Assembly: GCA_021850485.1 (NCBI GenBank)
Contig: JAJZLY010000008.1
Span: 209,879-273,878, forward strand
Reading direction: 5' to 3'
DNA: 64,000 nt
Source of the DNA: Bacillota bacterium
Lineage (GTDB): Bacteria; Bacillota; Sulfobacillia; JAJZYS01; JAJZLH01
The notes under the pieces are model-generated. The model saw only the letters and a program-made list of their open reading frames with translations. It had not been told where the DNA came from and did not search any database. The position numbers were made by a program, and so were the translations under genes. This document shows positions 55,764 through 60,875 of this stretch, one piece after another; within the stretch, counting starts at the first letter, position 1; every line of letters starts with the position of its first letter.

Positions 55764-57410
55764 ATGGCGCTGAAGTCAATAAAGTCGAGATATTCCTTCA
55801 TCGAAGACTTTCCCTTGCGTCGCATCCTTACTCTCGTCTTCTTGGCTAGCCCTTTCGTAATCTACATCACCTTTGTTGCTAAGTTCGGCGTGAATATTCC
55901 ATTTTGGGACGAATGGGACTTTACCGGACTAGTCATAGCCTACTACAATCACACGTTGACATTCCCCATGTTGTGGGCTCAACACAACGAGAATCGAATG
56001 CTGGTTCCAGAGATTATTTACATTACTGTTCAATTACTGACCCACTATCACAATAAGGTCATAATGTACCTTGACGCTGGGATCCTTGCCACCGCCGTGT
56101 ATGCAATGATTTGGTTTCTGGGGCGCTATATACACAGAACATTATGGCTTCTCCCGATCCCCTACATCTTATTTAGCCTCATTCAGAACGAGAACACCCT
56201 GTGGGCCTTTCAAACAGCCTGGTATCTCGTGTTACTAGCACTCGTTGGCGGTACCATTGTTCTCGCACTCGATTGTAGATGGGCTGTACTCATCGCCGTG
56301 GTTCTGGGCATTCTCGCGTCCTTGTCGTCTGTCCAGGGACTTCTGATCTGGCCGAGCCTTGCCCCCTTCTTCCTTCACCGCACTAAAACTGACAGACTCC
56401 AATGGCTAGTCGCCGGTTTCTTTACCATTGGCGTCTACCTCTTGGGATTCAATTTTGGCATATCGGGAGGTCCTGGCTACCTCTATGCCCTGACCCATCC
56501 CGTCATTGCCCTGAAGTACTTTTTCGTCGCGTGCAGTGGTATTTTTGCCATCTCCAACAATAGCCCCGGCGGGTACTTTGAAGCGGGCGTCCTTGGCATA
56601 GTCCTCTTCGGGGCTGCCGTGTACAGCTTATTCCTCTGGTGGAGGCATCCCAGAGATATTCTCCTTCAATCTACTGCAGCCTGGATCCTCTTTGCCCTAT
56701 TTTTCGACTTGTTGCTCGTGATCGGGAGATCAGGCTTTGGAATACCGCAGGCTCTGTCATCACGCTATACGACGTACAATTTGCTTCTTTTGGTTGCCGT
56801 CTATGTGACGTTTGTGCGTGCCTATCTGATAGAGAAGCATCCACAGCCGAAATATGCGTTGGCACTTGGAGTCGTCGGCCTGCTCATGGTGATACAGGTC
56901 AGCGCCGGGACACGGATAGGTCTGCTACAGGGTTACGGTACGTTCCAAAACAGGATCCAGGCGGCCGACCTAGTGGTTAACTACGAGACCTCCTCTGCGC
57001 ACTTCCCCGCCTTGATCACCCAGTACGTATTCCCAGACGTCCCGGTCGTCCTGCAAGATAGCGCCTGGCTGGCCGAGCATCGGCTCAACGTATTCTCGGA
57101 GCCACAAGCGAATATGTACAGGAGTTGGGGAGTGTTGCCAGGGGGCACTCCAGGACCCCTCCTCACCATTCCGTCAGCATTCCGACATTACCTTCTGACA
57201 AACCCATTTGCCTACAGGGCATGGGTCACCTTGTCCACCATCTACGATGGAAGGTCCGATCTACAGGCAGCGTTCGGCAGCGGCTCCGGATTCGACGCGA
57301 AGCTACTACAATGGGCAACAACATCGGGCGTCACCATCGATGGTGACGCCCCTTATCTGATTCCGTACAAGGCTCAGCTGTTCCAGATGTACCATCTGTT
57401 GAAATCGTAA
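55764..57410 (+). CDS. Polytopic membrane protein, candidate GT-C glycosyltransferase
   Basis: About 10+ TM helices, first external loop with acidic motif NIPFWDEWDF, soluble C-terminal portion; no family recognised with certainty. Confidence 0.7.
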   Translation: MALKSIKSRYSFIEDFPLRRILTLVFLASPFVIYITFVAKFGVNIPFWDEWDFTGLVIAYYNHTLTFPMLWAQHNENRMLVPEIIYITVQLLTHYHNKVIMYLDAGILATAVYAMIWFLGRYIHRTLWLLPIPYILFSLIQNENTLWAFQTAWYLVLLALVGGTIVLALDCRWAVLIAVVLGILASLSSVQGLLIWPSLAPFFLHRTKTDRLQWLVAGFFTIGVYLLGFNFGISGGPGYLYALTHPVIALKYFFVACSGIFAISNNSPGGYFEAGVLGIVLFGAAVYSLFLWWRHPRDILLQSTAAWILFALFFDLLLVIGRSGFGIPQALSSRYTTYNLLLLVAVYVTFVRAYLIEKHPQPKYALALGVVGLLMVIQVSAGTRIGLLQGYGTFQNRIQAADLVVNYETSSAHFPALITQYVFPDVPVVLQDSAWLAEHRLNVFSEPQANMYRSWGVLPGGTPGPLLTIPSAFRHYLLTNPFAYRAWVTLSTIYDGRSDLQAAFGSGSGFDAKLLQWATTSGVTIDGDAPYLIPYKAQLFQMYHLLKS

Positions 57411-57417
57411 GTCGGAG

Positions 57418-57765
57418 GTGAATCTCTTGTGGCTCTACTTGGTCCTTGCCATCCTCTGTAATAGTGCCGCTAACGTCTTGATGAAGGTGGCTTCAACTTC
57501 CATCGGGCACGGCCTAGGTATCAGAGGCATGGTTCAGAGTGGTTGGGTCTGGCTCGGCCTATTCTTATTTGGCGTCGCATTGATCTTCTACCTGTCGGTC
57601 CTGCAGAGAATGCAACTGAGCGTAGCGTATCCGATCATGACCGGAACAGGATTCATGCTTGTCACGCTCGCGTCGGTCCTCATGTTTAACGAGACGATCA
57701 CATGGACGAAGATCCTTGGCTCAGGAGTCATCTTAATCGGCGCTATCCTCCTCACTCGAAGCTAG
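57418..57765 (+). CDS. SMR/EamA-like four-TM small transporter (ArnE/ArnF-like candidate flippase)
   Basis: LVLAILCNSAANVLMKVAS...LQRMQLSVAYPIMTGTGFMLVTLASVLMFNETITWTKILGSGVILIGAILL; GTG start. Confidence 0.85.
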   Translation: MNLLWLYLVLAILCNSAANVLMKVASTSIGHGLGIRGMVQSGWVWLGLFLFGVALIFYLSVLQRMQLSVAYPIMTGTGFMLVTLASVLMFNETITWTKILGSGVILIGAILLTRS

Positions 57766-59072: not shown

Positions 59073-60088
59073 AGATACTGGTGACGGGCGCTGCCGGGTT
59101 CGTTGCAGGCTATCTGATCGAAGATCTCCTAGAGCACGGCCACACAGTGGTCGGGGTGGACAACTTCAGCAAGTACGGGCGATCTGAAAAAGCCTACGAT
59201 GCCCACCCTCGGTATATCTTTCGAGAGGCTGACGTCAAGGATGTCGGCGTGCTCCGAGAGGTCATGGCGGATTGCGATCAGGTAGTCGCCATCGCGGCGA
59301 TGATCGGTGGCATATCCTACTTTCATGAGCTTGCGTACGATCTCTTGGCAGAGAACGAGCGGATCACGGCATCCACCTTCGATGCGGCGATCTGGGCGCG
59401 ACAACACGGACAATTGGAGAAGATTAATGTGGTCTCGTCATCAATGGTGTTCGAGAGTGCGACCACATTCCCGACTCCCGAGGGTGAGGAGAGACATTGC
59501 CCGCCTCCTCAATCCACCTATGGCTTCCAAAAGCTAGCGACCGAGTATTTCGCACGAGGCGCCTGGGAGCAGTACACCCTGCCGTACACCATAATTCGCC
59601 CGTTCAACTGTGTTGGCATAGGAGAACGCAGGGCCGTCAGCGAGAAGACCGTCATGTCGGGCAATGTGCGCCTCGCCATGAGCCATGTCCTTCCTGACCT
59701 AGTTCAGAAGGTGCTCAAGGGCCAGGACCCCCTACACATTCTGGGCAGCGGACAACAGGTCCGCCATTACACGTACGGTGGAGACCTAGCGCGAGGAATC
59801 CGCTTGTGTATTGAGCGTCCCGAAGCTGTGAACGAGGATTTCAATCTCTCAACAGATCGGGGAACTACCGTGCTGGAATTGGCACAGATGGTCTGGGAGT
59901 CGATCAAAGGCGATGAACCATTTCGGTTTGTGAGCGACGACCCCTACCTCTATGACGTCCAGAGGCGAGTTCCAAGCACGAAGAAGGCGCGGGAGACTCT
60001 CGGCTTCGAAGCGACGACATCACTGGAAGAGGTGCTTTCTGAGGTGATTCCATGGATCCGAGAACAAGTTGACTATGGGAACATCTAG
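59069..60088 (+). CDS. NAD-dependent epimerase/dehydratase
   Basis: [67 protein letters not shown]; GTGA overlap with the upstream gene. Confidence 0.9.
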   Translation: [339 protein letters not shown]

Positions 60089-60875
60089 CGCTGATCCGCC
60101 GCCTGTCCTGGATTTCGTTGTTCCGGTGTACAACGAGCGCGAAAATATTGAGGCGTTTCTTAGGCAGGTGAAAACTCAGGTTGAGATTCCCTGCCGAGTT
60201 CTGATCGTCTACGACTTCCCGGAGGACAACACGATTCCAGAGGTGACTCGATTGGCTAGCCTCATGCCATTCGAGATCAAGCTGGTGGAAAACACCCTGG
60301 GCCGGGGGCCCCTCAACGCAATCAGGGCTGGCATCACCGCATCCACCAGCGAAGCCGTGATCGTAACCATGGCCGACTGCTCTGATGATCTCGGCGATGT
60401 GTCCAGAATGTACGCCTGCTATGCGCAGGGCGCTGATCTTGTCTGCGCTTCACGATATATGCGAGGCGGAGGACAGATCGGTGGCCCCTTGATCAAGGGG
60501 CTGCTGTCTCGCGTTGCTGGTATCTCCCTCCGTCTTCTGACCGGACTGCCGACCATGGATGCAACCAATAATTTTAAGCTCTACCGTCGGCAGGTCTTAG
60601 AGACGTTTCCCGTCGAGAGTCAGAAAGGGTTCGTGTTCGCCCTAGAGGTGACTGTGAAGGCCTTCCTCGGAGGCTTCGCTATCACCGAGGTGCCGACAAT
60701 CTGGCGTGATCGCACTGCCGGCAAGTCGAACTTCAGGCTGCTTCAATGGTTGCCACTGTACTGGCGATGGTACTGGCTGGCGGTGCGAGCGCGGGGATTC
60801 GGGTTGTATCGATCCATCCCCATTCCTCGGAAGTCGGAGAGCCCTCCAAGGTCCAAGTTGCAAGATCCTATGTGA
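60069..60875 (+). CDS. Family 2 glycosyltransferase of DPM1/GtrB type (polyprenyl-phosphate sugar transferase candidate)
   Basis: LDFVVPVYNERENIEAFLRQV; ENTLGRGPLNAIRAGI; DCSDDLGDVSRMY; GQIGGPLIKGLLSRVAGISLRLLTGLPTMDATNNFKLYRRQVLETF; IWRDRTAGKSNFRLLQWLPLYWRWYW; no C-terminal TM pair. Confidence 0.9.
   Translation: MTMGTSSADPPPVLDFVVPVYNERENIEAFLRQVKTQVEIPCRVLIVYDFPEDNTIPEVTRLASLMPFEIKLVENTLGRGPLNAIRAGITASTSEAVIVTMADCSDDLGDVSRMYACYAQGADLVCASRYMRGGGQIGGPLIKGLLSRVAGISLRLLTGLPTMDATNNFKLYRRQVLETFPVESQKGFVFALEVTVKAFLGGFAITEVPTIWRDRTAGKSNFRLLQWLPLYWRWYWLAVRARGFGLYRSIPIPRKSESPPRSKLQDPM

Follow-up and report, generated by a model that had tools for sequence, protein, structure and literature searches.

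The stretch of DNA analysed here, which we call the window, is 64,000 nucleotides long and carries, between positions 55764 and 60875, five co-oriented genes that are all read from the + strand and to which we refer in order as g1 to g5. Their coordinates, order and strand in the initial annotation agree with the list of open reading frames. The first gene, g1 (55764..57410), encodes a protein of 548 aa that is predicted from its structural model to be a polytopic GT-C glycosyltransferase of a family without a name. It is followed by g2 (57418..57765; 115 aa), a four-TM SMR protein that appears to be of the lipid-flippase type, g3 (57879..59072; 397 aa), a nucleotide-sugar C6 dehydrogenase, g4 (59069..60088; 339 aa), an extended-SDR sugar epimerase, and g5 (60069..60875; 268 aa), a soluble DPM1/ArnC-like GT2 that is probably a polyprenyl-phosphate sugar synthase. 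The genes had been described as closely spaced or overlapping, and the sequence does contain a GTGA overlap at 59069-59072 and an overlap of g4 and g5 at 60069, although an in-frame ATG at 60075 would serve as well for the start of g5. The description needs refining between g2 and g3, where a gap of 113 nt splits g1-g2 from g3-g4-g5. The cassette is also less GC-rich than its surroundings, as had been noticed (52-57% per gene compared with mostly 57-69%). As proof of transfer, however, base composition is weak, since at third positions the GC of the cassette (0.62-0.69) falls partly within the range of the adjacent glycan genes (0.64-0.78), and only the very short g2 is an outlier in codon usage.

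Elsewhere in the window are genes for RmlA-like, RmlC and RmlD proteins, several glycosyltransferases and, on the - strand at 50884..52471, a polysaccharide ABC exporter assigned to the Wzt/Wzm type by family search; this neighbour lies outside the cassette and is a possible source of the acceptor glycan. Beside the exporter a DUF2079 membrane protein is encoded (52490-54001), possibly another GT-C-like protein, and a gene for L-2-hydroxyglutarate oxidase (LhgO; 40835-42085) lies within the rhamnose/glycan cluster. Two large proteins of 582 and 1761 aa, apparently with repeats of the S-layer-homology type as judged from sequence only, are encoded at 29661-36984 in this genome of 1.6 Mb.

The product of g1 had no match in Pfam or NCBIfam, and a search of the PDB by sequence gave nothing meaningful. 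When a confident AlphaFold2 model of the protein (pLDDT 94.3, pTM 0.91) was submitted to Foldseek, the first match was ArnT with bound undecaprenyl phosphate, followed by PglB, STT3, AftA and AftB, with ALG3 close behind. The best 13 matches were all GT-C enzymes or oligosaccharyltransferase-containing complexes with a probability of 1.00, with marginal E-values (1.9e-3) and TM scores of about 0.4; transporters reached at most 0.41 in probability. The predicted fold therefore agrees with the GT-C fold first proposed for this protein and suggests that g1 is a GT-C enzyme. Its likeness to ArnT is one of fold only, the profile of g1 showing no link to ArnT (hhalign probability 0.2%), and none to a PMT_2 protein either. 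The acidic FWDEWD motif, which had been placed in the first outside loop, is part of PFWDEWDF at residues 46-53, between TM1 (17-41) and TM2 (97-120) of the model. The TM1-TM2 loop, with D49 and H74-R78, would face outside provided that the N-terminus is inside, and D49 is probably the catalytic residue.

At least 220 relatives of g1 were found when GTDB genomes were scanned with a three-row alignment, and 80 loci from many phyla were retained. An alignment of 45 members yields the family signatures P-[FY]-W-D-x-W, AQHNE[HN]R, GRxGFG and SRYxT; H74-N75-E76-x-R78, R322 and R334-Y335 are conserved, and D49, W51, N75, E76, R78, R322, R334 and Y335 are invariant or almost so. None of the 45 matched an NCBIfam model, and against Pfam there were two stray weak matches only. 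Viral contigs and phages held no relatives of g1 or g4. We conclude that g1 belongs to a widespread family, GT-C by its predicted fold, which has no name in current family databases and occurs in many phyla, cyanobacteria included. Members may also stand in tandem, with up to four paralogues in a row in L048 (3317-12621) and further tandems in L036, L045, L058 and L065.

The four-TM SMR protein of the initial annotation is recovered in g2, which matches Multi_Drug_Res of Pfam (2e-10) and, as its best model, ArnE of NCBIfam (9e-13), the latter with 48 bits, under the curated cut-off of 92 bits. By sequence g2 matched no solved SMR structure, and for this reason the residue test was based on the E. 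coli EmrE, ArnE and ArnF genes. In the resulting alignment Asn15 of g2 falls in the column of Glu14 of EmrE. This central Glu is essential in drug-exporting SMRs, and SMRs that transport lipids often have Asn in its place (PMC9574504). Together with the ArnE match, this residue supports the view that g2 is a flippase-type rather than a drug-type SMR, as judged from the alignment. Flippases of the ArnE type act as an ArnE/ArnF pair; the cassette has a single SMR gene and no such pair.

The families given at the outset for the other three proteins, a UDP-sugar-acid-type dehydrogenase, an extended-SDR epimerase and a DPM1-like GT2, are all upheld. For g3 there is a match to the nucleotide-sugar dehydrogenase model TIGR03026 (2e-74), and relatives were found in the PDB; the active-site positions are conserved and intact, namely Lys-x-x-x-Asn, the Cys in GPCLLKD and an Asp, the roles of which we take to be those in the known UDP-glucose dehydrogenase. 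The g4 protein matches Epimerase of Pfam (2e-38), and its S123-S124-S125-M126-V127 and YxxxK motifs are invariant in 14 orthologues. Met126 occupies the position of the decarboxylase Glu of ArnA, UXS and UAXS, so that decarboxylation is unlikely and xylose or Ara4N is disfavoured as the product. In UDP-GlcA 4-epimerase this position is Ser; in the B. cereus enzyme the carboxylate is contacted by Thr126, Ser127 and Ser128, and Ser124-Ser125-Met126 of g4 keep two of these three positions. Asn180 of g4, in an RPFN stretch, lies near Thr178 of the 4-epimerase. The sugar of the cassette is probably an epimerised hexuronic acid. Finally, g5 matches GT2 of Pfam (1e-18) and, by sequence, DPM synthase (3.8e-14) as well as the GtrB and ArnC structures; its alignment with DPM synthase and ArnC extends over the region of the R-x-x-G-x-S motif, and the protein is soluble, with no TM helices.

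The company kept by these genes in other genomes sheds light on how the cassette may be assembled. Homologues of g3, g4 and g5, with identities of about 52-58, 61-71 and 40-51%, respectively, stand beside g1 homologues in metagenome-assembled genomes labelled Bacillota, Dormibacterota, Acidimicrobiaceae, planctomycete, Prevotellaceae, Deltaproteobacteria and others; in WPS-2 (L060) the trio also adjoins g1, with a more distant epimerase. Of 81 g1 loci at least 13, drawn from several phyla, have the trio as a direct neighbour of g1, and the recurrence of the trio with the g1 family in many phyla is more than chance. The dedicated sugar synthesis that had been attributed to the cassette is supported. 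Co-occurrence of all five families elsewhere had been put forward as a check, and it holds for four of them; the SMR gene was not found with the trio at other loci, and GtrA is there in its place in L004, L005 and L095. In the closest relative, L004, GtrA, g3, g4, g5 and g1 form one run, in L005 GtrA lies directly upstream of the g1 homologue, and in four cyanobacterial loci (L020, L021, L046 and L057) a GtrA-GT2 fusion adjoins it. Since close relatives carry GtrA instead of the SMR, the flippase appears to be an exchangeable part. On two plasmids (L002 and L003) the g1 homologue follows UbiA, DprE1-like, DprE2-like and GtrA genes, a set that presumably follows the logic of polyprenyl-phosphate pentose donors; at these loci and in L033 g1 homologues sit with pentofuranose-donor genes.

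A second sample was chosen by the epimerase alone and was confined to a single phylum, the one to which L027 (labelled Chloroflexi) belongs, with 400 genomes covered. A g4 homologue was present in 46 of these genomes, and at 28 of the 38 loci inspected both of its partners were no more than three genes away, some of the remainder being perhaps losses in ORF calling. Most of the Chloroflexota trio loci have no g1-type neighbour, from which it follows that the partnership of the trio with g1 is not obligatory. What serves as the GT-C partner differs among these loci, being a g1-type protein, GT87, a PMT_2-like protein or an unnamed polytopic protein, and L095 has a GtrA gene at the head of the trio. 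The trio is thus a module in itself, in which the product of g3 and g4 is most likely loaded onto the lipid carrier by g5. At many Chloroflexota loci (L137-L152) the trio has as neighbours another dehydrogenase and epimerase pair, distinct from its own, and a conserved protein, some 330 aa long, that is DUF7373-like in L145.

The initial annotation had further proposed that the cassette is a mobile modification module associated with the neighbouring insertion sequence, and here two questions must be separated. At E<=1e-60 no relative of g4 was found in a set of 299 other genomes of the host phylum, which includes at least one congener, and at the sensitivity used neither of the two congeners nor any of 398 other genomes of that phylum has g1. 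In a tree the host g4 groups with copies from Prevotellaceae, Dehalococcoidia, Chloroflexota and planctomycetes (support 98/89). This absence and this grouping argue for horizontal transfer, and the gene set appears, from these sequence comparisons, to travel between phyla. The DNA to the right of the cassette had no match in either congener (G001 and G002), so that no empty site can be demonstrated. The role given to the insertion sequence, by contrast, must be abandoned. This ISL3-family element (54223-55532; 54214..55541 with its repeats), with a transposase divided between two frames (54158-55429 and 54232-54699), is flanked by 9-bp direct repeats, GGTAGCGCC, at 54214-54222 and 55533-55541, which are its target duplication, and pieces of its ends recur elsewhere in the same genome, at contig ends. 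Because it has its own duplication and its ends recur, the element came by simple insertion, independently of the cassette, and did not carry it.

As a whole, we consider it probable that the locus is a horizontally acquired multi-component transmembrane glycosylation cassette that would operate as follows. First, g3 would oxidize C6 of a nucleotide-linked hexose, giving a hexuronic acid, and g4 would invert one ring carbon of that sugar, the two acting in either order. At the cytoplasmic face g5 would then move the sugar off its nucleotide and onto polyprenyl phosphate, g2 would flip the lipid-linked sugar outward, and g1, probably using D49 in the first outside loop, would transfer it to a surface glycan. 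The acceptor would most likely be the polysaccharide of the neighbouring Wzm/Wzt exporter, or otherwise an S-layer glycoprotein; there is a precedent in Citrobacter youngae, where a polymer is decorated once an ABC transporter has exported it (PMC11127046). The initial interpretation is thereby upheld in part: the extracytoplasmic transfer first suggested for this locus is supported, as are the predicted GT-C fold of g1, the apparent flippase type of g2 and the DPM1-type GT2. A more general proposal, which we advance tentatively but regard as a serious one, is that the trio is a portable cross-phylum module for an undescribed polyprenyl-phosphate-linked hexuronic acid, to which a flippase, either SMR or GtrA, and a GT-C are joined, both of them exchangeable and the GT-C in this case coming from the widespread unnamed g1 family.

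Other readings must be weighed against this one. The architecture might be the same and the lipid-linked sugar not a hexuronic acid, if g3 and g4 served different pools or the uronate were modified elsewhere, so that g5 loaded a pentose, an aminosugar or a neutral hexose. The two marks of UDP-GlcA 4-epimerase that g4 lacks (Met126 for Ser128, Asn180 near Thr178) would fit this idea, as would the pentofuranose-donor genes of L002, L003 and L033. Nevertheless, g3 and g4 move with g5 as a tight trio that includes no decarboxylase, aminotransferase or reductase, and Met126 replaces the decarboxylase Glu; we judge a non-hexuronic sugar unlikely, if still worth keeping in mind. It is decidedly improbable that the trio serves the main glycan within the cytoplasm and that g1 and g2 are an independent pair, adjacent by chance: many Chloroflexota trios do lie among GT4 or other sugar genes without a g1-family GT-C, and the 113-nt gap falls at the right place, but g5 is DPM-like, in L004 and L095 the trio is headed by GtrA, GT2 homologues fused to GtrA adjoin g1 homologues, and the trio itself recurs beside g1 in several phyla. 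That g2 is a drug-efflux SMR and g1 a transporter-like protein beside sugar genes, with no glycosylation system at all, is scarcely credible, for although the Pfam name of g2 and the lack of any family name for g1 might suggest it, the central Glu of g2 is Asn, ArnE is its best model, and g1 matches GT-C enzymes, not transporters, at a probability near 1.

The favoured reading, a hexuronic acid cassette, can be compared with known systems, and our verdict is that it works like the extracytoplasmic glycosylation systems of the Gtr/Arn/Rgt type. With a polyprenyl-phosphate-type GT2 assigned from sequence, a linked small flippase and a polytopic protein of predicted GT-C fold, it would belong to the multi-component transmembrane glycosylation systems, as one that uses a GT-C of unnamed family and supplies its own sugar. 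The Arn system of E. coli (ArnBCADTEF) can be excluded as its identity, the cassette having no ArnA decarboxylase, ArnB aminotransferase or ArnD deformylase. The two are alike in an ArnE-type SMR flippase, an ArnC-like GT2, an ArnT-like fold and uronic acid chemistry; they differ in that the cassette has no aminotransferase, formyltransferase or deformylase, its epimerase has no decarboxylase Glu and g1 shows no profile similarity to ArnT. In the Rgt galacturonic acid system of rhizobia we know of no dedicated flippase. That system (RgtE, RgtD and RgtF; PMC7663294) resembles the cassette, by description rather than by sequence, in having a uronic acid donor that is linked to bactoprenyl phosphate and transferases dedicated to uronic acid, and differs in its acceptor, lipid A or core.

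Gtr of Salmonella and Shigella and CsbB-GtcA-YfhO, which are three-component systems (PMC8035078), share with the cassette a GT2 that charges polyprenyl phosphate, a small flippase and a GT-C transferase that acts outside, whereas the cassette has its own dehydrogenase and epimerase, an SMR rather than GtrA, a GT-C of unnamed family and a soluble GT2 without TM helices. Direct evidence that SMR and GtrA proteins do the same flipping job is still missing (PMC11127046), and the present gene set, in which the two are naturally swapped, would allow a direct comparison to show whether both families flip alike. GT136 of Citrobacter youngae, a GT-C tested by mutation, needs a loop-1 Asp, a Glu, a His and the Arg of an Arg-Tyr pair (PMC11127046). 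In g1 the loop-1 Asp, His and Arg-Tyr pattern is similar in kind, a likeness of residue pattern only, and the motif around the Asp is WDxW as against DxxEY in GT136. The GT136 system also decorates an ABC-exported polymer, and some g1 homologues adjoin UbiA/DprE-like genes; its donor is made from PRPP and its flippase is a MATE protein, whereas the donor of the cassette would be made by a GT2 from a nucleotide sugar. With its relatives, which are spread over many phyla and occur in cyanobacteria too, g1 makes a concrete candidate for a new GT-C family, and the cassette is a compact, testable gene set for the extracytoplasmic transfer of a probable uronic acid.
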